Positions 8,236 to 38,746 of a DNA stretch of 38,746 nucleotides are shown here, piece by piece. This stretch comes from a virus. The position numbers were made by a program, and so were the translations under genes. Location: IMG/VR virus record IMGVR_UViG_3300025674_000125, positions 1 to 38,746 of that record; one strand, 5' to 3'. The notes under the pieces are model-generated. The model saw only the letters and a list, made by a program, of their open reading frames with translations, was not told where the DNA came from and searched no databases. Numbering within the stretch: the stretch's first letter is position 1; every line of letters starts with the position of its first letter.

Positions 8236-8340
8236 TTTTTTTCGCGTATCTTGTTTTTCTGCTTGCGCGTTATCCAGGGGCGCCATAAGTGCTGTGTGTC
8301 GGGGGGGAGATGACCACCCCCCACGAGACAGGAGAGACAC
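8236..8340 (+). promoter_or_regulatory. Control cassette copy 1: T-run, TTGCGCGTTATC box, GACCA leader hairpin
   Basis: A T-run (8236-8242) directly follows the plug gene stop, but no strong terminator stem precedes it. The box TTGCGCGTTATC lies at 8263-8274; the -10 region is weak (TAAGTG/GTGCTG near 8286-8294). The leader hairpin pairs G-run 8301-8306 with C-run 8317-8322 and carries GACCA at 8312-8316 in the loop. The ribosome site GGAGAGACAC runs directly into ATG 8341. Same architecture as the copies at 23.4, 26.9, 27.6 and 28.0 kb. Confidence 0.7.
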
Positions 8341-8583
8341 ATGCTGGCCAGAATCCGAAAGCAACTCGAAGCCACCGTCAAGAATGAGACCGGATGCAAC
8401 GTGGAAATCATCGTTTCCAAGTCGATCGCGCGCGGCGTGTTCGTGTGCGTGTTCGGAATGCCCGCCGACGTCGATAGAGTCCGGGCTCTGATGGACGCCA
8501 CGGGCTCTCTTGTCTGGACAGACCGCGAGACCTACCCGGAAGACGGACCTGAGGTGGCCGACAACTTTCGGTTTGCCGCCTAG
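8341..8583 (+). CDS. Small unknown protein, accessory insertion in the baseplate operon
   Basis: 80 residues, not recognised. The start is fixed by the GGAGAGACAC site immediately upstream. It begins with a basic helix (MLARIRKQLEATVKNETG), followed by beta strands (NVEIIVSK, GVFVCVFGMP) and a short helix around ADVDRVRALMDATG. The compact alpha-beta pattern (beta-beta-alpha) could be an RNA/protein-binding or inhibitor fold, but no family is claimed. Codon use at the start is less GC-biased than in the structural genes. It has its own control cassette and breaks the baseplate gene order, as a moron would. Confidence 0.65.
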   Translation: MLARIRKQLEATVKNETGCNVEIIVSKSIARGVFVCVFGMPADVDRVRALMDATGSLVWTDRETYPEDGPEVADNFRFAA

Positions 8584-11940: not shown

Positions 11941-12515
11941 GCGATCACACCTACCCCGGGATCGATGACTGGAGGCGGGACACGCTAGACCGCGCCCCCT
12001 CACGCTCACGCGCGGGAGACGGGGCGGAGTGGTATGTGGGCCTCACGCGGACAGCGGCGGATCTGGAGCTCGTCCTGGAGGGCGTGGCCCGGGAGATCGG
12101 AGACCTGGAGGCCGCGGGCCGGTACGTCCTGGACGCGCGGGGCGCCCTCTATGGCGTGGACGCGGCGGGGGTCTCCACCGAGGAGCTACGACGCCTCACG
12201 ATCGGCGCGCGCGCCGCCATGGCGTCCACCGGGACGGATGCGACACTATACCGAATGTGGACCGCCCTCACGGGATCCGAGGACGTCCAGGTCCGGGTGG
12301 TGGGCGTGACCTCACGCTCAGTCTATCTCTCCGCGCGGGTGTCTTTTGTCCCGTCGTCCTCGTGGCTCAGGGCCGCGGGGCGGATCGTCGATCGCTCCGT
12401 GGAGGCCGGGATGGACTGGAGCGCCGTCGTCCACGTGGGCGGCGTGCTAGTATGGGGCGCCGCGCCGCCGGGGTGGGGCGTCGGGACGTGGGCTTATCCA
12501 CTCGTGAGACCGTGA
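11937..12515 (+). CDS. Baseplate wedge / tail protein I-like (DUF2612-like)
   Basis: 192 residues, ATGA overlap with the J-like gene. It has a helical N-terminus (LVLEGVAREIGDLEAAGRYVLDARGALYGV), an LRRLTIGARAAMASTGTDATLYRMWTALTGS segment resembling the 'R..I......s.Gt...l......l' core of DUF2612, a beta strand region (VQVRVVGV) and a Gly/Trp-rich C-terminus (GWGVGTWAYPLVRP). It probably attaches the fibres to the baseplate. Confidence 0.62.
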   Translation: MSDHTYPGIDDWRRDTLDRAPSRSRAGDGAEWYVGLTRTAADLELVLEGVAREIGDLEAAGRYVLDARGALYGVDAAGVSTEELRRLTIGARAAMASTGTDATLYRMWTALTGSEDVQVRVVGVTSRSVYLSARVSFVPSSSWLRAAGRIVDRSVEAGMDWSAVVHVGGVLVWGAAPPGWGVGTWAYPLVRP

Positions 12516-16451: not shown

Positions 16452-16452
16452 G

Positions 16453-16492
16453 CCCGCCTCGGGGGGTGGTCCTCCGGGGCGGGTTTTCTTTT
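16453..16492 (+). terminator. Intrinsic terminator after the nuclease unit
   Basis: CCCGCC (16453-16458) pairs with GGCGGG (16478-16483), with more pairing possible inside, followed by TTTTCTTTT (16484-16492). It ends the tail/nuclease transcription unit or separates it from the small gene at 16507. Confidence 0.7.
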
Positions 16493-16506
16493 GTGTGGAG
16501 GTGAGC

Positions 16507-16719: not shown

Positions 16720-16988
16720 ACCACGCGGAGGACGGCCACGAGGTCCGAGACCTCCACGCCGGGGGCGTCCACCTCTAGGACGTCCAGGATCGCCGCGGCA
16801 CACAGGCGATCCCACGCCTCCCCGGCGGCCACCTCACGGAGGCGGAGGACGTCTCCGATCGTGGTGCGACACCGGCCTGAGCGGCGCTGTGAGACGGCGG
16901 GGCCTGTGACCTCAAGCGCCGCCGCCACCGCCTCCCGGGTGAGGTCGTGGTGGTCCATATACGCCACGAGGGCGGCGGGTGATCTCAT
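16716..16988 (-). CDS. Cro/CI-type HTH regulator
   Basis: 90 residues. The start is ATG at 16988-16986 (minus), chosen because GGAGG lies 6 nt upstream; an upstream ATG (17051) lies inside terL. The N-terminal half is a helix-turn-helix: SPAALVAYMDHHDLTREAVAAALEVTGPAVSQ, recognition helix around TGPAVSQRRSG, then TIGDVLRLREV. The C-terminal half (LDVLEVDAPGVEVSDLVAVL) may be a small dimer domain. Only 32 nt separate it from the terL stop, so it is probably co-transcribed with terL. It could control the convergent or divergent operons. Confidence 0.65.
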   Translation of the reverse strand: MRSPAALVAYMDHHDLTREAVAAALEVTGPAVSQRRSGRCRTTIGDVLRLREVAAGEAWDRLCAAAILDVLEVDAPGVEVSDLVAVLRVV

Positions 16989-21557: not shown

Positions 21558-23332
21558 CCGCCGCCGCCACGCCGGACCTGTGGAGCGGGTCCCAGTGGCC
21601 CCCGCGGAGGTGTCAGGACGAGGGGGTCCGGGCCGCCCTGGCTCACGCCGGATCGCCACTGATCGACAGCTGCACCGGCTCCGGCAAATCTATGATGATC
21701 TCCGAGCTTGCATGGTACCACCGGGAGACCATGCAACCGCGGGACGTGGTGATCGTGATGACCTCCCGCCAAGACCTCGTGGCGTCCCTCTCCGAGTCCG
21801 CGCGCCACCGCCTCGGGGATGACGTGGGCGTCTGGTACGGGCGCCGGAAACAGTGGGGGCGCGTCGTGTTCTCCTGCTACCAGTCCCTCCCCGCCGTGGC
21901 GGACGAGGTGGCCGCCCGCGGGTACCGCGTGGCCCTCCTCATATGCGACGAGGCCCACCGCCTCACGACGCCGGCCCGGTGGGGGGAGGTCCAGCGGCTA
22001 GACCCGATCAAGCGGATCGCCCTCACGGCTACCGCCTACACGGGACAGGGGGAGCCGATCCCGGGGTGGTCTATCTGCTACAGCTACCGCGTGATCGACG
22101 CGATCCGGGATGGCGTCCTAGTCCGCCCTGAGCCCCGCCCGTGGACCGGCGCGGACGGGGAGGGGATCAACACGGCCGCCCTGGACATGATCCTCCGGGA
22201 CGCGCCCCCCGGCCCCGGGGTGGTCTCCGCGGACTCGATCACGGACGCCACGTGGTACGCTCAGATCCTCACCGCTCACGGGATACCGGCCCTGGACTAC
22301 CACAGCCGGATCACGCCGCGGGAGAGACGGCGCCGCCTGGACGCCCTGGCCACCGGGGAGATCCGCGCCCTCGTCCACCCGCGGATCATGACGGAGGGCG
22401 TGGACGTCCCGTGTCTCCGGTGGCTGTGTCTCCGCGTCCAGCGGAACCTCCGGGATCTCGTCCAGGAGGTGGGCCGGGGGATCCGGTCCCTCTCCGAGCC
22501 GGACGCGTGGGGGACCAAGGATCGCTGTGTCGTCCTGGACCCACGCCACCAACTCCCCCACGTGGAGCGGATCGACCCGGACGGCCGGACGGTCCACGAG
22601 GGCCACGACGTGGAGGCGATCCTCCGCGCCCTGGAGGGCCACGAGGACCCGGACGGGGAGACGGAGACCCCGGCGGAGAGGAAGGAGCGGGAGGCCCTGG
22701 AGAGGGCGGAGGACACGGTGAGGCGCGTCTCAGACGTGTCCGCGTGGTGTACGATCGCCCGGGACCGGCTCGCGATCGCCGGGTGGATACCGCCCGGAGA
22801 GGTTACGGGGTGGGGCGATCGGTGGCTCCTCCGGGAGCCCACGGCGCGACAGCGGGACGCCCTGGACAAGCGGCGCCGGACGCTGAGGTGGTTCCCCCCG
22901 GAGTACCGGGACGCGATCCGCGTGGCCCTGGACCACCCGGACCACCTCACCCGGGGAGGCGCCCGGGATCTCCTCTCGGTCCTGATCGCCGTCTCCAGGC
23001 GCGCCGGTATGCACGCCTCCGGGGGTGGCGATCAGGCCCTCGGGGTGGCCAACGATCTCACCCGCCGCCACGGGTGGACGGCCACGCGCGGGGACATCCT
23101 GGAGACCCTCGGGAGGGGGTGGGACATCACGCCCCGGGACCTGGCCGACACGTGGCTCAGCCGGGACTGGATACGCGCGGAGGACCTCGGATCGGGGCGG
23201 GTGACATTCACCCCCGCCGCCCTGGAGGCCGTCCAGGCGCGGAGGGCCGCCGGGCCGCGGGTCCTCTGGACGTGGACGTGGCCCCCGGAGGTGGAGCTAC
23301 CGCCGCCGCCCGGGGACGACGGGGAGGAGTGA
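21554..23332 (+). CDS. Superfamily 2 DNA helicase (DEAH)
   Basis: 592 residues, GTG overlap with the methyltransferase. Motif I TGSGKS (about residues 41-46), motif II CDEAHR (about 131-136), motif III LTATA (about 158) and motif VI QEVGRGIRS (about 302-310) in two RecA-like domains, as in the UvsW/Res-type DEAD/DEAH family. After residue ~390 come charged helical regions ending in a Pro-rich acidic tail. Likely recombination-dependent replication or fork remodelling. The neighbouring methyltransferase invites a restriction-system reading, but no nuclease domain is seen. Confidence 0.82.
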   Translation: MTAAATPDLWSGSQWPPRRCQDEGVRAALAHAGSPLIDSCTGSGKSMMISELAWYHRETMQPRDVVIVMTSRQDLVASLSESARHRLGDDVGVWYGRRKQWGRVVFSCYQSLPAVADEVAARGYRVALLICDEAHRLTTPARWGEVQRLDPIKRIALTATAYTGQGEPIPGWSICYSYRVIDAIRDGVLVRPEPRPWTGADGEGINTAALDMILRDAPPGPGVVSADSITDATWYAQILTAHGIPALDYHSRITPRERRRRLDALATGEIRALVHPRIMTEGVDVPCLRWLCLRVQRNLRDLVQEVGRGIRSLSEPDAWGTKDRCVVLDPRHQLPHVERIDPDGRTVHEGHDVEAILRALEGHEDPDGETETPAERKEREALERAEDTVRRVSDVSAWCTIARDRLAIAGWIPPGEVTGWGDRWLLREPTARQRDALDKRRRTLRWFPPEYRDAIRVALDHPDHLTRGGARDLLSVLIAVSRRAGMHASGGGDQALGVANDLTRRHGWTATRGDILETLGRGWDITPRDLADTWLSRDWIRAEDLGSGRVTFTPAALEAVQARRAAGPRVLWTWTWPPEVELPPPPGDDGEE

Positions 23333-23367
23333 GGATCCCGTGGTGGTGGGGATCCTTGGATTTTTTT
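23333..23367 (+). terminator. Intrinsic terminator (cassette copy 2)
   Basis: GGATCCC (23333-23339) pairs with GGGATCC (23349-23355), followed a few bases later by TTTTTTT (23361-23367). It begins immediately after the helicase TGA and closes the DNA-metabolism operon. Confidence 0.8.
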
Positions 23368-23463
23368 CGCTTAAATGTGGCCTGTATTGTTGCGCCTTAT
23401 CTGACAGCACCTTAAAGGTATTTTGTCGGGGGGAGAGACCAGCCGCCCGCAAGGAGAGACACG
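23368..23463 (+). promoter_or_regulatory. Control cassette copy 2: TTGCGCCTTATC box and GACCA leader hairpin
   Basis: Box at 23390-23401 (one change from the consensus). The -10 is diverged (AGGTAT at the conserved spacing, or TATTTT slightly downstream). The leader hairpin pairs CGGGGGG (23427-23433) with CCGCCCG (23443-23449), one G-G mismatch; GACCA (23437-23441) is in the loop. Ribosome site AAGGAGAGACACG precedes ATG 23464. Confidence 0.65.
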
Positions 23464-23856
23464 ATGACCAAGCCAACCAACAGCCCGAACCCAAACATCC
23501 GACGCAACGCACAGGCCGCGAGCCAAGCAGTCCTCAACAAGAACCGCCGCGGAGAGTGGCTCACCTCCGCCGCCGCGGAGGCTGTGGCCAACAAGTACGG
23601 CCGGGATTGCTCCCTCATGTTCAACGTCGCAAGCAGCAAGCAACACGAGCGAGCATACGGGGAGGCCGCCCTCCTGATCGCTGCAATCATCCGGTGCATC
23701 CGTGACTATTACCTCCCCACGGGTGAGGCGATCAATGGGAAGTTCATGCACGTGGAGACGCTGGCTCGACTCAACTTCCAACTCCTCGCCCAGTACGGCC
23801 GGGATCCCATGATGTACGCCGTTTGGAGCGAGGCCACGCAGGCCGACTGGACCTGA
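23464..23856 (+). CDS. Unknown protein under cassette control
   Basis: 130 residues. Not recognised. The N-terminus is Asn/Gln-rich and basic (TKPTNSPNPNIRRNAQAASQAVLNKNRRGEW), unlike the Ala/Glu-rich style of most proteins here, and its codons are less GC-biased. A helical core follows (TSAAAEAVANKYG, YGEAALLIAAIIRCIRDYYL, METLARLNFQLLAQYG). It could be a DNA- or RNA-binding early protein. It has its own terminator-promoter cassette and shares a leader hairpin type with the next gene. Confidence 0.65.
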   Translation: MTKPTNSPNPNIRRNAQAASQAVLNKNRRGEWLTSAAAEAVANKYGRDCSLMFNVASSKQHERAYGEAALLIAAIIRCIRDYYLPTGEAINGKFMHVETLARLNFQLLAQYGRDPMMYAVWSEATQADWT

Positions 23857-24878: not shown

Positions 24879-26855
24879 ATGCCGAGTGACCAAGCCCGAC
24901 CCGGATCCCGTACCACAGCCACGGATACGGATCAAGCCCTACTAGCTCTCCGCGCCCTCGTGGAGTGTGCCACGCATCACCCGGACAAGGTGGACGCGTG
25001 GCGCGATTGGTTGGACCGGATCCCCCTCGGGGACGGCGCGGCCCTCGTGGGCGTCCGTGAGGTGGACGTCCTCTTGGAGCGCCTGGCCTCCGTGCCTGGA
25101 TACGCCTCCAGGGCCGCCGCCGCGCGTCGGATTCTTCGGAGCTACCACGAGACGGGGCCGCGGATCCGCGTCGTCCAGGGGGGCGCTGAGGCGCCCTCCG
25201 TGTCCCTCTCGGAGAGGATGGTCTCCGAGGGCTACCACGACGCCCCGGACGGCCTCGTGGTCCCGGACGGCTACCGCCTCCAGGAGGGGGAGATCGTCCG
25301 CGTGACCTCCGAGGACCGGGAGGACGTGACGGTCTCCGAGCGCCCGATCGCGATCGTGGGACGCGCCACGGACGCGGAGACCGGGGAGGCGTCCGTCTCC
25401 GTGGCGTGGCGATACGAGGGCCGGTGGATCGCGGAGACAGTGAGCCGGTACACCGTGGCGGACGCGCGCGCCCTCGTGGCCCTCTCACGCCGTGGGGCGC
25501 CGGTGGACTCCACCACCGCCTCCGAGGTGGTCCGGTGGCTCAGGCGACAAGAGAGCGCCGCTCACGGCCTCCCCTCCGTGGCGTCCATGGAGCGCCTGGG
25601 ATGGACCCCGGACGGGACCGGGTACCTGTGGGGGACCACCTCGATCGGGCGCCCCGTCCACCTCGTGGCGCCGGGTGAGGGGGAGCGATCCCGGGCGGAG
25701 GGGTACCGCGCGCGCGGGACCCTGGAGGGATGGATCCGGGACGTGTGGACGCCATCCCGGGATCAGCCGGCCGGCCTCGTGATCCTGGCCGCCGTGACGG
25801 CGCCGCTTGTCCACGTCCTGGACGGCCCCGGGTGGACGCTGGACATCGGAGGCCCACCGGGGACGGGGAAGTCCGCCGCCCTCAAGGCCGCCCTCTCCGC
25901 GTGTGGAGACCCGGCGCCGCTGTGGCACCTGTGGGGGCCGAATTGGGCCGGGGTCCGTAACGCGCTGCAATTCGCCCACAGCGTCCCGTGTGTCCTGGAC
26001 GATACCAAGCACACGGCCGGGGACTGGAGTGTGGTCCAGCGGGTGGTTTATACGGCCTACGATCGCGCGTCTCAGGCCCTCGGACAGGTGGGCGGCGGGA
26101 CCCAGCGCGCGCGCCCCGTGAGGACGATCGTCCTCTCCACGGGTGAGAGCCGGATCGCGTCCCACTGTGCGGACGCCGGGGGCGCCGCGTCTCGTATGCT
26201 CACCCTGGACCGGGCGCCGTGGGCGGACATCGAGATCGCGCCGCGGATCCACGACGCGGTACAGGAGCACCACGGCCACCTCCTCCCCCTCGTGGTCCGG
26301 TGGCTACTGGACCACCGGGACGAATGGACGGATCTGAGGACCCAGTGGCGGGAGGTCCACCGGGCGCGGACGATGGGGGAGAGACGGGCGGACGTGATCC
26401 GCGTGGCTCAGCTTCCCGCCATGCTGGAGATCGCGGCCTCCGTGGTACGGCGCGCCGCGGCCCTGGAGGTCCCCCGGGGCCTCCTCGATCTAGCCTGGAC
26501 CCTGGCCACCGCGGCGGAGGCTGAGCGGGACACGGCGGCTACCGCGTGGCGCTGTGTGGAGCAATACCGCGCCACGAGGCCGGACAGGTGGGCGGGGGTC
26601 TCGGACGCCCGGACGCCCTACCTCGGACTCCAGGCCGCGGCCGTGGTGTACTGGACCCGGGAGGGGCTAGACGAGGCCCTCCGATCCGGGGGCTACTCCG
26701 CGGCGGACGTCCTCTCGATGTGGGGTGAGCGCGGGTGGCTGGAGGCCGCCACCTCCGGGGGGTACCAGGTGAGACGGAAGATCGGAACCACCCGCGCCTG
26801 GGTCTATGGTCTCCGCCGGGACCGCGGGCCGGACGCGGAGGGGGACGCGGACTGA
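24879..26855 (+). CDS. DUF927-type primase-helicase ATPase
   Basis: 658 residues. ATG 24879 has CAGGAG 10 nt upstream. A beta-rich region (residues ~130-290, with ISVAWRYEGRWIAETVSRY-like strands and LGWTPDGTGYLWGT) matches the DUF927 fold. The ATPase follows: Walker A GPPGTGKS (about 325-332), Walker B CVLDDT (about 371-376), then STGESRIASHC and an arginine-rich region. C-terminal helical winged domain (TSGGYQVRRKIGTTRAWVYGL). With the zinc-ribbon protein upstream it is the best candidate for the replicative helicase loader or primase-helicase. Confidence 0.78.
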   Translation: MPSDQARPGSRTTATDTDQALLALRALVECATHHPDKVDAWRDWLDRIPLGDGAALVGVREVDVLLERLASVPGYASRAAAARRILRSYHETGPRIRVVQGGAEAPSVSLSERMVSEGYHDAPDGLVVPDGYRLQEGEIVRVTSEDREDVTVSERPIAIVGRATDAETGEASVSVAWRYEGRWIAETVSRYTVADARALVALSRRGAPVDSTTASEVVRWLRRQESAAHGLPSVASMERLGWTPDGTGYLWGTTSIGRPVHLVAPGEGERSRAEGYRARGTLEGWIRDVWTPSRDQPAGLVILAAVTAPLVHVLDGPGWTLDIGGPPGTGKSAALKAALSACGDPAPLWHLWGPNWAGVRNALQFAHSVPCVLDDTKHTAGDWSVVQRVVYTAYDRASQALGQVGGGTQRARPVRTIVLSTGESRIASHCADAGGAASRMLTLDRAPWADIEIAPRIHDAVQEHHGHLLPLVVRWLLDHRDEWTDLRTQWREVHRARTMGERRADVIRVAQLPAMLEIAASVVRRAAALEVPRGLLDLAWTLATAAEAERDTAATAWRCVEQYRATRPDRWAGVSDARTPYLGLQAAAVVYWTREGLDEALRSGGYSAADVLSMWGERGWLEAATSGGYQVRRKIGTTRAWVYGLRRDRGPDAEGDAD

Positions 26856-26865
26856 GCGACCCGCC

Positions 26866-26902
26866 ACGATCCCCGCGCCGTGGGGATCGTCGGATTTATT
26901 TT
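26866..26902 (+). terminator. Intrinsic terminator (cassette copy 3)
   Basis: ACGATCCCC (26866-26874) pairs perfectly with GGGGATCGT (26882-26890), followed by a T-rich tract TTTATTTT (26895-26902). It closes the primase-helicase operon. Confidence 0.8.
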
Positions 26903-26997
26903 CGCGTTATGTTGCTTTTATTGTTGCGCGTTATCTCTAGCCGTGTTCTTATGCTTTCACCGGAGGGACGGACCACCCGCCGGAAGGGAGAGAGAAC
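26903..26997 (+). promoter_or_regulatory. Control cassette copy 3: TTGCGCGTTATC box, TATGCT, GACCA leader hairpin
   Basis: Box at 26924-26935; TATGCT at 26950-26955, 26 nt from the start of the box. Leader hairpin: CCGG-A-GGG (26960-26967) with CCC-G-CCGG (26976-26983), seven pairs flanking an A-G mismatch; the loop ends in GACCA (26971-26975). The ribosome site GGGAGAGAGAAC precedes ATG 26998. Confidence 0.7.
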
Positions 26998-27243
26998 ATG
27001 ACCAACGCAACCGCCGCCGCCGAAATCATCGAGATCGCAGAAAGCCTGGAGGACTGGGCGATCGCCGTGGACGGGGACGCGGACGAGGCGCTCACCCTCA
27101 TCGCGATCCGCAACTGCGCCCGGGAGACCCTCCAGGACATGCGCGCCGCGTGGGGCCTCTACGCGGACGGGATCCTCCCCCTCCACGACGGGCAAATCCT
27201 CAAGCGCGCTCAGAGCATCCTGCAAAACCTGATCAACGGCTGA
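26998..27243 (+). CDS. Small unknown helical protein
   Basis: 81 residues. Entirely helical in appearance: AAAEIIEIAESLEDWAIAVDG, DEALTLIAIRNCARETLQDMRAAWGLYADG, QILKRAQSILQNLING. Acidic N-terminal half, amphipathic, likely oligomeric. Not recognised. First gene of the island of small genes after the helicase operon; an anti-defence or host take-over role is a guess from position and size. Confidence 0.6.
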   Translation: MTNATAAAEIIEIAESLEDWAIAVDGDADEALTLIAIRNCARETLQDMRAAWGLYADGILPLHDGQILKRAQSILQNLING

Positions 27244-27252
27244 GACCAACCC

Positions 27253-27268
27253 GGCCCCCACGGGGGCC
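27253..27268 (+). promoter_or_regulatory. Intercistronic hairpin GGCCCCC-AC-GGGGGCC
   Basis: Identical to the hairpin at 23885-23900 and followed by the same TCACACGAGGAGAGACAC ribosome-site block before ATG 27287. Confidence 0.55.
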
Positions 27269-27286
27269 TCACACGAGGAGAGACAC

Positions 27287-27526
27287 ATGCGACGACGCAA
27301 CACCACCCCCCCTACCTACCGCCCCGCTGAGGGCGCCCCCCGCGTGGAGGTCCTCCGCGCCGCGTACCTGTGCGGCCGGGACCTCTCCCCGCGCGACCAC
27401 CGCGCCAACTGGATCGACGCCCTCACGGGCGACGACTACCGGGACGCCGTGGAGGCGTACCACGCGGGCCAGTCCGCGGAGTGGTCCGGGGACGATCGCG
27501 CCGTGGAGGACTTGATCCGCCTCTAG
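27287..27526 (+). CDS. Small unknown protein
   Basis: 79 residues. A basic Pro/Thr-rich N-terminus (MRRRNTTPPTYRPAEG) leads to a helical, acidic domain (VEVLRAAYLCGRDLSPRDHRANWIDALTG, DYRDAVEAYHAGQSAEW, DDRAVEDLIRL). Not recognised. It shares the leader hairpin of the gene at 23920 and ends before the terminator at 27547. Confidence 0.6.
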   Translation: MRRRNTTPPTYRPAEGAPRVEVLRAAYLCGRDLSPRDHRANWIDALTGDDYRDAVEAYHAGQSAEWSGDDRAVEDLIRL

Positions 27527-27546
27527 GGCGCCCCCGCCGCCACCGG

Positions 27547-27585
27547 CCCACGATCCCCACCACGGCGGGATCGTGGGTTTTTTTT
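27547..27585 (+). terminator. Intrinsic terminator (cassette copy 4)
   Basis: CCCACGATCCC (27547-27557) pairs perfectly over 11 bp with GGGATCGTGGG (27567-27577), followed by eight T (27578-27585). The strongest terminator in the window. Its core ACGATCCC is shared with copy 3. Confidence 0.88.
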
Positions 27586-27682
27586 GCGTCCGTGTTGCTT
27601 TTATTGTTGCGCGTTATCTCTAGCAGTGTGAATATACTTTCACCGGGGGGACGGACCAACCCCCGACGAAAGGAGAGACACC
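27586..27682 (+). promoter_or_regulatory. Control cassette copy 4: TTGCGCGTTATC box, TATACT, GACCA leader hairpin
   Basis: Box at 27607-27618, preceded by TTGCTTTTATTG as in copy 3; TATACT at 27633-27638 (26 nt from the box start). Leader hairpin: CGGGGG (27644-27649) with CCCCCG (27660-27665), with GACCA at 27654-27658. Ribosome site AAAGGAGAGACACC before ATG 27683. This is the best-conserved copy with copy 5. Confidence 0.75.
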
Positions 27683-27910
27683 ATGGCAGCAACCACCACC
27701 GACCGCCGCGCGGCAACCTTCACCCTCCACGGCCACCCGGACCACGGGGACGTGGACTTCATTATCTGGCCCGCGGACAATACCGCGATGGTCTCGGGTG
27801 ACCTTGGCAACCAAGCCATGGACGTCCAGTCCGCGCGGGACCTCTACCGCCGCCTCCGGGCGGAGATCCGGGCGGAGGCCCGGAAGTGGGCACGCACGGC
27901 CCCATGGTAG
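27683..27910 (+). CDS. Small unknown protein
   Basis: 75 residues. Beta-rich first half (ATFTLHGHPDHGDVDFIIWPADNTAMVSG) with three His, then a helical basic second half (SARDLYRRLRAEIRAEARKWARTAPW). The HGHPDHGD segment could bind a metal, but no family is recognised. A single-gene unit between two full cassettes. Confidence 0.6.
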   Translation: MAATTTDRRAATFTLHGHPDHGDVDFIIWPADNTAMVSGDLGNQAMDVQSARDLYRRLRAEIRAEARKWARTAPW

Positions 27911-27931
27911 GCCGTCCGCGCCGCGCCGCCG

Positions 27932-27957
27932 CCGCCCCCTCGGGGCGGTTTTTTTTT
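27932..27957 (+). terminator. Intrinsic terminator (cassette copy 5)
   Basis: CCGCCCC (27932-27938), loop CTC, GGGGCGG (27942-27948), then nine T (27949-27957). The stem differs in sequence from copies 2-4, while the downstream promoter part is nearly identical to copy 4. Confidence 0.85.
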
Positions 27958-28054
27958 GCGTCCGTGTCGTTTTCTACTTGCGCGTTATCTCACAATGTGC
28001 CAATATACTTTCACCGGGGGGCGGGATTGACCACCCGCCTCGGGAGATGACACC
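27958..28054 (+). promoter_or_regulatory. Control cassette copy 5: TTGCGCGTTATC box, TATACT, GACCA leader hairpin
   Basis: Box at 27978-27989; TATACT at 28004-28009, again 26 nt from the box start; then TTTCACCGGGGGG as in copy 4. The leader hairpin pairs GCGGG (28021-28025) with CCCGC (28034-28038) plus outer pairs, with GACCA at 28029-28033. The ribosome site GGGAGATGACACC before ATG 28055 is less conserved than in the other copies. Confidence 0.72.
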
Positions 28055-28162
28055 ATGACGACGATCGCCACCGCCTACGCCGCCCTCACCCGCCTCACGG
28101 CGGATCCCTTTGTGGCCGCCCTGGTTCGGATGGCGATCCGCGCCGTGGTGGAGTCCTGCTAA
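28055..28162 (+). CDS. Micro-protein of 35 residues
   Basis: The frame reads MTTIATAYAALTRLTADPFVAALVRMAIRAVVESC and ends in TAA. Its amphipathic to hydrophobic helix (about residues 17-33) may insert in or lie on a membrane. It sits at the expected start site behind a full control cassette and is followed by a hairpin and a second ribosome site, so it is very likely translated. Not recognised. Confidence 0.55.
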   Translation: MTTIATAYAALTRLTADPFVAALVRMAIRAVVESC

Positions 28163-28987: not shown

Positions 28988-29017
28988 CTTGGACGCACTT
29001 GGACGCACTTGGACGCG
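28988..29017 (+). repeat. Iteron block A: three tandem CTTGGACGC(A/G) decamers
   Basis: Copies of CTTGGACGC begin at 28988, 28998 and 29008: exactly 10-bp spacing, one helical turn, so bound proteins would lie on the same face. Confidence 0.85.
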
Positions 29018-29039
29018 GGAAAAGATAGGATCTACCGTA
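29017..29039 (+). repeat. Second origin element, copy 1 (GGAAAAG-TAGGATC-CGTA)
   Basis: The 23-mer at 29017-29039 matches 29244-29266 at 18 positions, sharing GGAAAAG, TAGGATC and CGTA. Further TAGGATC boxes occur at 29070-29076 and, inverted, at 29286-29292. Confidence 0.6.
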
Positions 29040-29054
29040 GCCCCGGACGTGGTG

Positions 29055-29097
29055 TCTAAATCTATCTTTTAGGATCTAAGGTAAGAATTAAAAGAAA
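29055..29097. other. AT-rich patch in the origin region
   Basis: A run of mostly A/T including TCTATCTTTTAGGATCTAA and AATTAAAAGAAAG, lying between oppositely oriented iteron blocks A and B. Such composition is very rare in this genome. It is a candidate DNA-unwinding element. Confidence 0.6.
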
Positions 29098-29190
29098 GTC
29101 CAAGCGTGTCCAAGTGGTGTCCAAGTGGTGTCCAAGTGATAAACCAGGGATCCCCCTACACTTTCTCCCAGGTGTCCAAATTGTCCAAGT
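29098..29190 (-). repeat. Iteron block B: six inverted copies (GTCCAAGT on plus)
   Basis: GTCCAAGC at 29098 and GTCCAAGT at 29108, 29119, 29130 and 29183, plus GTCCAAAT at 29174. Spacing is 9-11 bp within clusters. Orientation is opposite to blocks A and C. Confidence 0.85.
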
Positions 29191-29243
29191 GTTTCAGGAG
29201 AGACCCACGAAATCCGGGAGGCCGCGGCGGGGGGGGTCTACGC

Positions 29244-29266
29244 CGGAAAAGCTAGGATCGTTCGTA
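29244..29266 (+). repeat. Second origin element, copy 2
   Basis: Matches 29017-29039 at 18 of 23 positions; lies between iteron blocks B and C and is followed by a run of C. Confidence 0.6.
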
Positions 29267-29312
29267 CCCCCCCCCCGGAGACTCAGATCCTATGGGTATA
29301 TCTCAGGAAAAC

Positions 29313-29403
29313 ACTTGGACACTTGGACACTTTGACGATAGCGCCGGGAGGACGCCGACAACGCGCGCCCAACACCACTTGGACACCTCGGATTCACTTG
29401 GAC
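29313..29403 (+). repeat. Iteron block C: ACTTGGAC copies
   Basis: ACTTGGAC at 29313, 29321, 29377 and 29396, plus ACTTTGAC at 29329. The first three are tandem at 8-bp spacing, unlike the 10-11 bp spacing of blocks A and B. Confidence 0.85.
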
Positions 29404-29426
29404 ACCCCCCGCGGCGGGTGAGCATG

Positions 29427-30531: not shown

Positions 30532-30596
30532 TTGCGCGCGCTACCGTTGCGCGTTAATGCCTTGCATGTATGCAAACGACCCAAGGAGATCGACCC
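30532..30596 (+). promoter_or_regulatory. Promoter/operator with TTGCGCGTTA box and TTGCAT-GT-ATGCAA palindrome
   Basis: TTGCGCGCG (30532-30540) and TTGCGCGTTA (30547-30556) resemble the box of the control cassettes. The palindrome TTGCAT-GT-ATGCAA (30562-30575) overlaps the expected -10 (TATGCA). It is placed to be an operator for the winged-helix protein of the gene it precedes. AAGGAG follows 9 nt before ATG 30597. No GACCA hairpin is present. Confidence 0.55.
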
Positions 30597-30854
30597 ATGC
30601 CACGCGGACGCAGCCCCCTCACGATAGCTCAGATCATGGCCGGGATTGACCCCGATCGCCCCGTGACCGCGGACGGCCTAGCCGCCGCCGCCGGTACCTC
30701 CAGGCGCACGGCTCAATATCGGATCCGCCGCCTCCGGGCGGAGGGTCTACTCTCCCCCGTGGACGGGGAGACCACCGGCCCGCGTGGTCAAGGCGTCCGC
30801 GCGGAGTATACTCTCACCGACACGGGACGCGCGGCCCTGGCCGCCGCCCCCTAG
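30597..30854 (+). CDS. Winged-helix transcription regulator
   Basis: 85 residues; ATG 30597 is preferred over ATG 30570, which lies inside the operator palindrome, because AAGGAG precedes it. Helix-turn-helix: VTADGLAAAAGTSRRTAQYRIRRLRAEGLLSPVDG, with the wing ETTGPRGQGVRAEYTLTDTGRAAL. Resembles MarR/PadR-type or replication-initiator wHTH domains. Probably autoregulates through the palindrome at 30562. May control the packaging/head operon downstream. Confidence 0.65.
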   Translation: MPRGRSPLTIAQIMAGIDPDRPVTADGLAAAAGTSRRTAQYRIRRLRAEGLLSPVDGETTGPRGQGVRAEYTLTDTGRAALAAAP

Positions 30855-30867
30855 ACCCGGCGGCCCC

Positions 30868-32949
30868 ATGCCCACGATCCGCGATCGCGTCCTCTCATGG
30901 TTAGACCTCACCCCACCCCCGGAGACCCCGCCGGACGAGTCCCGCGCGGACTCCGTGATCCAGTCCTCCGCCATGGGGTTCGGGATGGCCGGGAAGGACC
31001 GCGTGGACGAGGTGACGCCTAAAAGCGGGCTCAGGTGGTGGTCACAGGCTCAGCTTGTCCATAGCTACATGAGAGGAGGGATCGCCCGACGACTGGCGAT
31101 CGCGCCACCCATGGACGCGATCCGCCACGGGTACACCGTGACCACGGACACGGAGGAGGAGGAGACGGTCCCGCGCGCCCTCCACGTCCGCCGCGCCGCC
31201 CTCCAGGCCCGACAGTACGCCCGGGCGTTCCGGGGCGCCCTCGTCTACGTGAGGGTAGACGGCGATCAGTCCGCCCCCCTCGGAGACGGCCCCCACGAGG
31301 TCCGAGCCCTCCACGTGATCATGCCCTCCGAGGCCACCCCCTCCGCCCTCTCACGACAGGCGGACGTGGATCGGCCGGACTGGACGGCCCCCGAATTCTG
31401 GGACCTCCACCCGACGCGGCCGGGTCTCACCTTCAGCGGGGAGCGCCGGGTCCACGCGTCCCGCGTGATCGTCGTCCCGGGCTTGGACGTCCCGCTGGAC
31501 GTGACGCCGCCTGATGACGGATTCCAGGCCGCGGTCCTGGACGTGTACTGGGAGAGTCTCCGAAATCTTGAGGTGGTGACATCCTCCACCACGTCCCTCA
31601 TGTCCGAGCGATCGGTGGCCGTCTATGAGCAGGACGGGAACGGCGCCGCCTCCGGGCGTGACGGCGTGTCCTGGCTGGACCGCCTCCGCGCCCTCCGCCG
31701 GGCTACCTCGGTCCTCGGGGCGATCACCCTCCCGCCGGGGTGGAAGGTCTCCCGGACGGACGCGACGATCACCGGGTGGCGAGACGCCAAGGTCTCCGCG
31801 TATGAGGACGTGGCCAGCGTGGAGGGGATCCCCCCCGCGGTGGCGATCGGTACGCCGCCGGCCGGGATGACCTCGGACGATCAAGCCTCACGCCGGACGT
31901 ACCACCGCCTCCTGGACGGACAGGAGCGGCCGATCCTGGAGGACGTGATCCTCCGGGTCCACGAGATCGTCCACGGCCTAGACGAGTCCCGCCGCATGAT
32001 CTGGCCCGCCCTGGAGGAGCCCACCGCCGTGGAGCGCGCTCAGATCTCCGCCACCCTGGCCCAACGGGACGCGGCCCTCTACGCCGCCCAGATCGTGGAG
32101 CGTGACGAAATCCGGGGCCGCCACCTCGGGGACCGGGAGATCGAATACCTCCAGATCGATCCGACCCTGGACGACGCCGCGGACGCGATCGAGGTGGACC
32201 CGGGAGAGGACACGGCCGCCACCCTGGAGGAGATCCTCCGCGCGGACGCGGAGACGTACCGCCCCCCGGAGTCCGCCCGCAACAACGCCCGCCGCGTCCT
32301 CAAGTGGCGGGAGGAGCACGGGGACGAGGTGGCCGGGATGACCCGCGTAGGATGGACCCGCGCGCGTCAGCTAGCCGAGGGCCGCCCCCTCTCCCGGGAG
32401 ACGGTGGGAAGAATGGCGGCATTTGAGCGCCACCGCAAGAATTCCGAGGTGGCGCCGGAATACAAAGACACCCCCTGGAGGGACGCCGGCCGCGTGGCGT
32501 GGCTTGGATGGGGCGGGGACTCCGGGGTGGCGTGGGCCGCCCGGATCGTGGCCCGCGGGGACGCGGAGGACAAGAGCACGCCGGCCAAGCCCTCCGAGCG
32601 GATCAAGGGCTCACGGACCAACCCGCGCGGGACGGCCTCCGGGTCTCGTGGCGGGATCGAGGTCTCCGAGGAGACTGAGGCCGCCCTCCGGTCCAAGGTG
32701 GACGAACACAACGACGGCGCCACCGAGGGCCGCCGGGTGGATCTGGGTATGCTTAAAGCCGTCTACCGCCGCGGGGCCGGGGCGTTCTCCACCTCTCACC
32801 GCCCCGGGATGACCCGTAACCAGTGGAGCATGGGGCGCGTTAACGCTTTCTTGCACCTCGTGAGGACGGGGAAGCCTCAAGACGCGGACTACACCGGGGA
32901 CAACGACCTCTTACCCAAGGACCACCCCCGATCCACCCGGGAGGGGTAG
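30868..32949 (+). CDS. Portal protein with two C-terminal extra domains (DUF1073-like)
   Basis: 693 residues. Residues ~20-430 read as a DUF1073-type portal: GIARRLAIAPPMDAIRHGYTVT, LQARQYARAFRGALVYVRVDGD, a long stem helix around ISVEGIPPAVAIGTPPAGMTS, DQASRRTYHRLLDGQER. Two phage-associated modules follow: ~463-565 (ARRVLKWREEHG... ARQLAEGRPLSRETVGRM, LGWGGDSGVAWA), seen in prohead and protease proteins, and ~594-690 (TEAALRSKVDEHND, LKAVYRRGAGAFSTSHRPGMTR, VNAFLHLV), another common phage module. A 12-subunit ring would carry twelve copies. No clear ribosome site precedes ATG 30868. Confidence 0.78.
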   Translation: MPTIRDRVLSWLDLTPPPETPPDESRADSVIQSSAMGFGMAGKDRVDEVTPKSGLRWWSQAQLVHSYMRGGIARRLAIAPPMDAIRHGYTVTTDTEEEETVPRALHVRRAALQARQYARAFRGALVYVRVDGDQSAPLGDGPHEVRALHVIMPSEATPSALSRQADVDRPDWTAPEFWDLHPTRPGLTFSGERRVHASRVIVVPGLDVPLDVTPPDDGFQAAVLDVYWESLRNLEVVTSSTTSLMSERSVAVYEQDGNGAASGRDGVSWLDRLRALRRATSVLGAITLPPGWKVSRTDATITGWRDAKVSAYEDVASVEGIPPAVAIGTPPAGMTSDDQASRRTYHRLLDGQERPILEDVILRVHEIVHGLDESRRMIWPALEEPTAVERAQISATLAQRDAALYAAQIVERDEIRGRHLGDREIEYLQIDPTLDDAADAIEVDPGEDTAATLEEILRADAETYRPPESARNNARRVLKWREEHGDEVAGMTRVGWTRARQLAEGRPLSRETVGRMAAFERHRKNSEVAPEYKDTPWRDAGRVAWLGWGGDSGVAWAARIVARGDAEDKSTPAKPSERIKGSRTNPRGTASGSRGGIEVSEETEAALRSKVDEHNDGATEGRRVDLGMLKAVYRRGAGAFSTSHRPGMTRNQWSMGRVNAFLHLVRTGKPQDADYTGDNDLLPKDHPRSTREG

Positions 32950-35697: not shown

Positions 35698-36095
35698 GAG
35701 AGATCGCCGCCCTCGTGATCCACCACGCCGCCGCCGTGACCACCCTGGAGGAGATCGACAGGTGGCACCGCGCGCGCGGGTGGCGTGGCGTGGGGTATCA
35801 CTATGTCGTGGAGGCGGACGGCCGCCTCCGCCTCGGACGCCGTGAGGACGAGATGGGGGCTCACGCCGCCGGACGCAACCAGGACACGATCGGGATCTGT
35901 GTCGCCGTGGACGCGCGGGACGGGATCCCCTCCGCCTCGTGGGATCAGCTTGTGACCCTCACGCGTGACCTGATGAGGCGCCACGGGCTCACGGTGGACG
36001 ACGTGATCCCCCACTATCAGATCGGATCCACGGAGTGTCCGGGATTCCCGATCGAGGACCTATACGAGGCGATCGATCCGAGGGGGACCGCGTGA
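35694..36095 (+). CDS. Endolysin: N-acetylmuramoyl-L-alanine amidase (T7 lysozyme-like)
   Basis: 133 residues, the size of a single Amidase_2/PGRP domain with no separate wall-binding part. Zinc ligands: H10 or H11 in LVIHHAAAV, H107 in VIPHYQIG, C115 in STECPG. GVGYHYVVEADGRLRLGR (Tyr of the active site) and GAHAAGRNQDTIGICV are also canonical. It cleaves the amide bond between MurNAc and the peptide. No signal peptide, so it needs a holin. ATG overlaps the previous gene's stop. Confidence 0.88.
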   Translation: MREIAALVIHHAAAVTTLEEIDRWHRARGWRGVGYHYVVEADGRLRLGRREDEMGAHAAGRNQDTIGICVAVDARDGIPSASWDQLVTLTRDLMRRHGLTVDDVIPHYQIGSTECPGFPIEDLYEAIDPRGTA

Positions 36096-36358
36096 CCGCC
36101 GCCGCCGTGATCCTCACACTGGCCGCCCTCGTGACCCTCGGACGCCGTGGCCACCGCCGCCGCCGTGACGATCAAGATCGGGCGCGCCGTGAGATCCTAG
36201 CCATGGCCGCCGCCACGTCCTCGGACCTGGCCGCCCTATCTTCACGCCTGGACGCGCTCCGTGAGGATCTGGACGTCCTCCGGGACATCGTGATCGCGGT
36301 GGCATACCCGGAGACGCGGGACACGCCACCTCAGGGAGGACAGCGTGAGCGATCCTGA
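36092..36358 (+). CDS. Small protein with one N-terminal TM and a coiled coil (spanin-like?)
   Basis: 88 residues, GTG overlap with the amidase. Hydrophobic residues 3-16 (AAAVILTLAALVTL) are followed directly by RRGHRRRRDDQDR (positive-inside) and a helix-rich DLAALSSRLDALREDLDVLRDIVIAVA. This layout matches inner-membrane spanin or holin-accessory proteins. The next gene starts inside it (GTG 36345). Assignment rests on topology and position. Confidence 0.5.
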   Translation: MTAAAVILTLAALVTLGRRGHRRRRDDQDRARREILAMAAATSSDLAALSSRLDALREDLDVLRDIVIAVAYPETRDTPPQGGQRERS

Positions 36359-37799: not shown

Positions 37800-38746
37800 A
37801 TGCCACTCTCACAAATTCGGGGCCGCGCCGGTCAAGCGATCGGCGCCCGTCTCGGTACCGAGTACACCGCGGACGATCTAGCTAAGATCGTGACCTCTGG
37901 ACGCGCCTCAGCCCCCGTGGCTCAGGTCTCCACCGTCACGGTGGACAGCGCCCAAAACTCCACGCTTTACAGCCTGGACATCCTCCCCCCGGGCTATGAG
38001 TCCCCGATCGTGGTGTCCTTCACCTCGGACGGTACCGCCACCACGGCGGAGATCGCCGCGGGCCTCGGGGCCGCCGTGGACGCGGACGCCGCCGCCTCGG
38101 GATGGTTCGACACCGGCGTCGTGAGCAACGTCCTCACGCTCACGGGTAACGCGCCCGGGATCGCGGTCTCCGTGACCTCCAGCGCCGCCTCCGCCTCGGA
38201 CCTCACGATCGCCACGGCTACCGCCGCGGCCTCGGGTGGCTCGCACACCTTCGGGCGCGTCGTCAACCTGGCCACCTTCGACGCCGCCTCAGGCGCGTGG
38301 AACGTGAGCGCGGCAGCCATGCCCACGCGCGCGTCCCTCGTCCTGGCCGCGGTCCACGACGCCGGCGCGACGTACACGATCACGATCTCCGTGGTCAACG
38401 CCTACACGGGCGCGGCCCAATTCCCCAACGCGATCAGCTTCGCAGCCGGCGCCTCCGCCACGGCTACCGCGGCCAACGCCGTGACCGCGTTTGACGCGGT
38501 GTTCGGGGCCGGCGCCACGGCCACCAGCGTGGCCGGATCGGACATCACGATCACCGTCACGATCGCCGCGCCAAATCAGATCGGACAGATCGTCGTCCCT
38601 CCCGCCGCGTCCGGTGGTGGTGGTTCGGAGGATTTCGACCTCACGAGCACGGCGCCACTCCGTGAGGCTATCCGATCGGGTGTGGTCATGGACTACGACG
38701 TGACCCCGCCGGCCTCGTTTGGCGTGAGCCCCACGGCCACCCAGGC
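37800..38746 (+). CDS. Capsid cement/decoration protein, 5' part (runs off the end)
   Basis: 315 codons are visible. ATG 37800 has CGGAGG about 7 nt upstream. Residues 1-40 (MPLSQIRGRAGQAIGARLGT...DDLAKIVTSGR) would bind the capsid. Residues 40-155 form a beta module with VSTVTVDSAQNSTLYSLDI and TTAEIAAGLGAAVDADA, a repeat type also found in the fibre protein at 13515. A second beta module follows (ITISVVNAYTGAAQF...NQIGQIVVPP), then GGGGSEDFDLTS. The last 381 bases duplicate the window start; the full protein closes in frame to the stop at 616 (393 residues). Confidence 0.72.
   Translation, partial: MPLSQIRGRAGQAIGARLGTEYTADDLAKIVTSGRASAPVAQVSTVTVDSAQNSTLYSLDILPPGYESPIVVSFTSDGTATTAEIAAGLGAAVDADAAASGWFDTGVVSNVLTLTGNAPGIAVSVTSSAASASDLTIATATAAASGGSHTFGRVVNLATFDAASGAWNVSAAAMPTRASLVLAAVHDAGATYTITISVVNAYTGAAQFPNAISFAAGASATATAANAVTAFDAVFGAGATATSVAGSDITITVTIAAPNQIGQIVVPPAASGGGGSEDFDLTSTAPLREAIRSGVVMDYDVTPPASFGVSPTATQ
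38366..38746. repeat. Right copy of the near-identical contig ends
   Basis: Matches bases 1-381 with 15 substitutions (13 of them silent) and no gaps, in frame within the cement gene. Confidence 0.9.

Follow-up and report, generated by a model that had tools for sequence, protein, structure and literature searches.

The DNA analyzed here (hereafter the window) is a 38,746-b phage contig from IMG/VR (IMGVR_UViG_3300025674_000125) with a G+C content of 69.8%. Downstream of its DUF927 gene lie three similar intergenic cassettes, all on the + strand and each comprising a predicted terminator, a conserved box, a -10-like hexamer, a leader hairpin and a ribosome site, as located by a terminator scan, an nhmmer profile and a covariance model. 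The first, W_D1 (26864-26997; terminator 26866-26890, box 26924-26935, TATGCT 26950-26955), precedes two genes of 81 and 79 aa (26998-27526, +); the second, W_D2 (27548-27682; terminator 27548-27577, box 27607-27618, TATACT 27633-27638), precedes a 75-aa gene (27683-27910, +); and the third, W_D3 (27928-28054; terminator 27931-27949, box 27978-27989, TATACT 28004-28009), precedes a 35-aa gene (28055-28162, +). Two further + strand copies were located by nhmmer, the covariance model and the sequence itself: W_C (23330-23463; terminator stem GGATCCCGTGGTGGTGGGGATCC, box 23390-23401), ahead of a 130-aa gene (23464-23856, +), and W_A (8236-8340; T-run, box 8263-8274, -10-like CATAAG at ~8284-8289, leader hairpin and ribosome site; 76.5 bits with the covariance model), which has a tail gene on one side and the baseplate region on the other and precedes an 80-aa gene (8341-8583, +).

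Searches of IMG/VR with the terminase, portal, capsid and two small genes returned essentially the same contigs each time and identified only two relatives, G1 (IMGVR_UViG_3300040807_003040, 38,963 b, ~91% DNA identity to the window) and G2 (IMGVR_UViG_3300040810_001033, 40,808 b, ~82% identity), with one extra distant match in the portal search (39% over ~100 aa). No relative of the terminase was found in GTDB genomes, and the window DNA had no match among 50,697 phage records at the sensitivities used. Backbone gene order is identical across the three phages, and the families found in the window include Terminase_6C, Phage_portal_3, a Mu F-like head protein, an N6/N4 methyltransferase, a helicase, DUF927 and PD-(D/E)XK. 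Since the phage also encodes an Amidase_2 peptidoglycan amidase (lysin), its host is a bacterium; an archaeal (TATA/BRE) promoter was rejected on the basis of this amidase and of Shine-Dalgarno sites at most genes.

The two ends of the contig (1-381 vs. 38366-38746) are 96% identical over 381 b, and therefore the genome probably closes on itself, with ends that would come from slightly different variants. About 10 copies of GTCCAAGTG/CACTTGGAC, in both orientations, occupy 28989-29405 of the window and 35791-36225 of G2, within a ~700-nt stretch without a ribosome-site-led ORF that is kept in G2 and at which the G1 contig breaks; these are possible origin or partition iterons. G1 carries a ~950-b insertion without a cassette (31090-32060) between the N6/N4 methyltransferase and helicase genes, with a cytosine-methyltransferase-like ORF (FPCQDIS motif, read by eye), and in G2 an alanine-rich ORF of 220-240 aa, which the window phage lacks, is present as two tandem copies that are 80% identical (24918-26315).

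Anatomy of the cassette

The five window regions align over ~105 nt, with the parts in the order T-run, AT-rich stretch, box, -10-like hexamer, TTTCACC/TTGTGTC, G-run hairpin, ribosome site and ATG. A first, sequence-only reading of this DNA had described these regions as one repeated cassette, and all the parts that it listed are present in all five. It had also proposed a profile and covariance search of relatives, and the nhmmer profile built from the five window copies alone found 11 more copies in G1 and G2, at 36.9-91.0 bits vs. a maximum of 9.4 bits in 20 simulations of these genomes with a third-order Markov model. There are thus 16 copies in total (5 in the window, 7 in G1 and 4 in G2), all on the + strand and with 74-79 nt between box and ATG, and a covariance model made from all of them recovered those 16, with no other match in 256 kb scoring above 18.3 bits. 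The cassette had no match in Rfam, and pattern scans of other phages and bacteria gave chance matches only, with no match in GTDB genomes.

At the upstream end, a full predicted terminator hairpin precedes the boxes at 23390, 26924, 27607 and 27978, while only a T-run with a weak stem precedes that at 8263. At the downstream end, the ribosome site was expected to be of the GGAGAGACAC type, and this sequence is exact before three of the five window cassette-led genes but is replaced by GGAGAGAGAAC and GGAGATGACACC before the other two.

The leader hairpin, first noticed in the window copies, folds in all 16 (-11.8 to -21.6 kcal/mol), with its stem at or a few nucleotides from the predicted transcript start. 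It is GC-rich and has a recurring GACCA loop, and its arms differ from copy to copy. We found no covariation across aligned columns of the 16 copies because the 3' arms shift register; exchanging the 3' arms between copies lowered the mean stability from -15.5 to -14.4 kcal/mol (permutation p=0.015), which lends modest support to selection on hairpin pairing. Some hairpin loops (G1 16763-16785, G2 12456-12482) contain GATGACCA(AC) and resemble the ribosome site plus the ATG-ACC-AAC start of cassette-led genes, and the leader hairpin may derive from a duplicated start region.

The box as originally given, TTGCGCGTTATC, is matched in full at 8263, 26924, 27607 and 27978 and with a single mismatch at 23390, but its invariant core is shorter, TTGCGCGTTA, with variation in the last two bases of the box and a G to C change at position 7 in two of the 16 copies. 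A -10-like hexamer 26 nt from the box start had likewise been proposed; this holds for three window copies (boxes 26924, 27607 and 27978) and four in G1, which make up a TATRCT class (TATACA in one) of seven copies, but not for the other nine, whose best -10 match lies at +21 to +23 (CATAAG, TTAAAG, TATCTT, TATAAG). In a sigma70-type promoter, the -35 and -10 hexamers are normally 16-18 nt apart; the seven TATRCT copies, with 20 nt after TTGCGC, have a spacing that is unusual for sigma70, and the other nine have 15-17 nt. TTGCGC retains the TTG of a sigma70 -35, a sigma70 consensus scan did not call the cassette promoters, and scans that covered some of the gene products recognised neither a sigma factor nor an RNA polymerase.

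A supposed partial copy of the box ahead of 30597 turned out to be a separate promoter-like site, TTGCGCGTTAA-N10-ATGTATGCAA (30547-30575, +), which has neither terminator nor hairpin and is kept in all three phages. It carries an AT-rich -10-like hexamer at the normal 15-17 nt and precedes a core gene, the small HTH-like gene at 30603, which is followed by the portal operon; judged from its layout, this site shows the box as a putative stand-alone promoter element as well. Because nine cassette copies and the 30547 site have a -10-like hexamer at 15-17 nt, a host sigma70-type reading of the predicted promoter would be adequate for most copies. The idea that reading of the box requires a phage or alternative factor is not supported, given the conserved TTG, the spacing in 9 of 16 copies and the failure to recognise a sigma factor or RNA polymerase in the products scanned. 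In another phage, of 64% GC, a T-run, a T-rich stretch and TTGCGCGTTA-N14-TATGCT (TTGCGC-N18-TATGCT; 18.3 bits, E=0.21) precede a small HTH-like gene. With a single copy, no hairpin and that score, this look-alike was rejected as a cassette; it may indicate that the box has wider use as a promoter element.

The box may alternatively serve mainly to bind a phage regulator, e.g. the HTH-like 30603 protein, with the repeats kept as operators or switches for regulation only. The 30603 product weakly matches a transcription regulator, and TTGCGCGTTA is near-invariant while the position and spacing of the -10 vary, which is more than a plain -35 needs. However, this explanation, which we regard as quite improbable, would leave the co-conserved T-run, leader hairpin and ribosome site, as well as the mosaic units described below, unaccounted for. 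Binding of a regulator at the box is compatible with the explanation that we favor as an extra function.

Cassette-led genes and their movement between sites

Every gene behind a cassette is small and gave no family match where scanned, and none of these genes is shared by all three phages. Both the 80-aa gene behind W_A and the 75-aa gene behind W_D2 are absent from G1 and G2; unrelated genes take the place of the 130-aa gene behind W_C in both relatives; the 81-aa/79-aa pair behind W_D1 is absent from G2 and in G1 lies behind the second site-D cassette, not the first; and the 35-aa gene behind W_D3 is in G1 (94% aa identity) and was not found in G2. The sequence-only reading had described the proteins behind all five window copies as small and of unknown function, and Pfam, PHROG and PADLOC gave nothing above noise for the cassette-led proteins covered by those scans. 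The 80-aa product of 8341-8583 has a sub-threshold KH domain match (E=0.03) and may, judging from that match, bind nucleic acid.

To quantify this, we scored the 51 window genes as accessory when missing in at least one of G1 and G2. Accessory status was found for 5/5 cassette-led genes vs. 6/46 others (Fisher p=2e-4) and, among genes of ~150 aa or less, for 5/5 vs. 5/19 (p=0.006). Four of the six accessory genes that are not directly behind a cassette (23920, 27287, 28199 and 28375) come after a cassette-led gene; the remaining two are 16507, at site B, and 29453, inside the gap of the G1 contig.

Cassette-linked variation occurs at four places: A (tail/baseplate), B (before the terminase), C (helicase/primase) and D (after DUF927). 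At site A, the window has the 80-aa gene, G1 has two genes led by cassettes, and G2 has a gene of the 148-aa type. Site B provides an empty and a filled version: the window has a single terminator (16452-16504, +) that aligns with G1 25313-26075, and G1 has a terminator, a cassette, the 148-aa gene and a second terminator; the insertion point is the terminator T-run, unoccupied in the window. Site C has three different genes in the three phages, and the series of units at site D differs in each. Genes have also changed sites: G1 carries the 148-aa gene at site B and G2 carries it at site A (64% aa identity), and a 79-aa gene located at site D of G1 recurs at site C of G2, with 96.5% nucleotide identity over 255 bp vs. 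~82% for the backbone. We looked for relatives that keep the genes without the cassette and observed the opposite, with the same cassette preceding different small genes in G1 and G2. Three of the four G2 cassettes cluster by genome, not by site, as expected from local homogenisation or duplication of copies.

Mosaic cassettes and a proposed route of gene exchange

Two cassettes of G1 are mosaics. G1_D3, the third cassette at site D of G1, equals W_D2 at 41/41 informative positions from its upstream terminator up to the -10; beyond the -10, from hairpin to ATG, it equals W_D3 at 10/11. The 75-aa gene that separates W_D2 from W_D3 in the window is missing in G1, where the flanking cassettes correspond to this one mosaic copy. 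The second site-A cassette of G1 (G1_A2) combines a site-D-type terminator with a nearly identical (98%) copy of G1_A1, with the junction at the T-run. Each of the two splits was reached by 0/20,000 permutations, and the breakpoints differ, being the T-run in G1_A2 and the block between -10 and hairpin in G1_D3. W_D1 was also tested as a mosaic of two G1 copies, and this was not supported. The mosaics are the products expected from recombination between copies, by deletion or insertion. Together with the empty and filled site, the moved genes and the accessory association, they support the central earlier proposal, that of a plug-in unit by which accessory genes are spread, also within the tail/baseplate operon.

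We consider it likely that these are promoter-terminator cassettes read by the host that double as patches of homology for recombination, analogous to the PeSL elements discussed below and unrelated to them in sequence, in a small phage of 70% GC. The upstream stem and T-run would stop incoming transcription, the TTGCGCGTTA box and downstream -10 would restart it, most likely via the host RNA polymerase, and the transcript would start at or just before the GC-rich hairpin, which may shield its 5' end, with a strong ribosome site next. We infer promoter and terminator activity, the transcript start and the function of the hairpin from the arrangement of these parts. Because the same ~105-130 bp is repeated before every accessory unit, the copies could serve as homology patches; recombination between them, within a genome or between co-infecting phages, would insert, delete, duplicate or swap units of gene plus terminator and leave the neighbouring operons undisturbed. 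We infer generalised homologous recombination to be the agent of this exchange. Counted against this explanation are the 20-nt spacing in seven copies, the absence of hairpin covariation, and the variable genes (e.g. 23920, 28199, 28375) that lie downstream of a cassette and not directly behind it.

A simpler possibility is that these are ordinary repeated promoters and terminators, i.e. that the phage drives its small early or accessory genes from a single type of promoter, with gene turnover having other causes. The box-plus-(-10) site at 30547 precedes a conserved gene, so the promoter type is not limited to accessory genes, and harmless insertions naturally fall at the ends of transcription units. 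We nevertheless find this explanation unlikely, since similarity extends beyond the promoter hexamers over the whole ~105 nt, T-run and leader included, the same genes occur behind cassettes at different sites, and two mosaics have breakpoints inside the cassette. The location of those breakpoints also bears on whether the cassette is a site-specific or transposing element, integron-like or MITE-like, whose movement depends on a dedicated recombinase that acts on the hairpin or box. The strict orientation, the conserved GC-rich hairpin with its recurring GACCA loop and the precise insertion at site B would suit such an element, yet the breakpoints vary by event, the hairpin arms vary among copies, there is no target-site duplication except the terminators themselves, and the subset of ORFs examined yielded no recognisable integrase or transposase; we thus judge this alternative highly improbable.

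Returning to exchange at promoter-terminator cassettes, one may tentatively go further and postulate, at somewhat less than even confidence, that a PeSL-like shuffling cassette arose independently in a small contractile-tail lineage of 70% GC, equipped with a dedicated leader hairpin and with an extended box that would be read by an unusual holoenzyme or a phage regulator, and that most of the accessory genome consists of interchangeable units at four sites, one of them within the structural operon.

Comparison with known systems

A sigma70 early promoter of the T4-type phage is among the features that define PeSL (promoter early stem-loop) elements. As described in PMC4503421, which refers to Arbiol et al. 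2010 and Comeau et al. 2014, the PeSL of T4-type phages combine a terminator stem-loop with a promoter, occur in many dispersed copies with small ORFs between them, and allow these ORFs to be shuffled between related phages by recombination at the elements. Measured against that account, our cassette shares the fusion of a terminator-like stem-loop and a predicted promoter in one intergenic element (terminators at 26866, 27560 and 27931, immediately ahead of box and -10), the dispersed similar copies flanking small ORFs (5, 7 and 4 in the three genomes), and ORFs between cassettes that differ or shuffle among the window, G1 and G2. It departs from the same account in that: 1) the carrier phage, of 38.7-40.8 kb and 70% GC with Phage_portal_3, Terminase_6C and a Mu F-like head protein, is not T4-type; 2) the cassette sequence is unrelated and includes an added conserved leader hairpin; and 3) copies are also found inside the tail/baseplate operon. 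The cassette works like a PeSL and, with both phage and sequence unrelated, is not a member by descent.

Other systems offer partial parallels. In the haloarchaeal tailed virus HGTV-1, TATA-box and inverted-repeat motifs before many ORFs were proposed to be PeSL-like (PMC3950731). Our cassette likewise is a repeated, predicted promoter plus inverted repeat ahead of ORFs; unlike HGTV-1, with its archaeal promoter and host, the host here is bacterial as judged from the Amidase_2 amidase, and gene movement is shown here by comparing relatives. The morons of lambdoid phages are small ORFs, each with its own promoter and terminator, that have been inserted into another operon between two of its genes; they are described as GC-deviant and as acquired independently through non-homologous recombination (PMC1524935). 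Sites A and B fit this layout, with a predicted promoter, whereas the base composition of the cassette-led window genes does not deviate in the way that would signal recent arrival from a foreign source (GC3 0.75-0.90 vs. roughly 0.8-0.9 in most core genes), a single homologous cassette is common to all units, and the mosaics show recombination between copies. The two different breakpoints, and the lack of a recognised integrase in the ORFs covered, also separate our units from integron-type gene cassettes, which have a dedicated recombinase and a single fixed crossover site. In Campylobacter group II phages, kilobase arrays of 72-86 bp repeat units separate modules of 28-55 kb (PMC4546147); those repeats, like our cassettes, bracket variable ORFs and permit rearrangement of modules, but here we find single promoter cassettes with one gene each.

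The shuffling of genes via promoter-terminator elements, for which large T4-type phages are the known case and one archaeal virus a suggested one, is thus extended to a small lineage unrelated in sequence, indicating convergent evolution of plug-and-play gene slots. The mosaic cassettes allow homologous recombination at regulatory repeats to be tested directly, and the cassette itself provides a sequence tag that predicts which small genes of unknown function are tradeable, yielding a definite set of genes that are candidates for host takeover or counter-defence.
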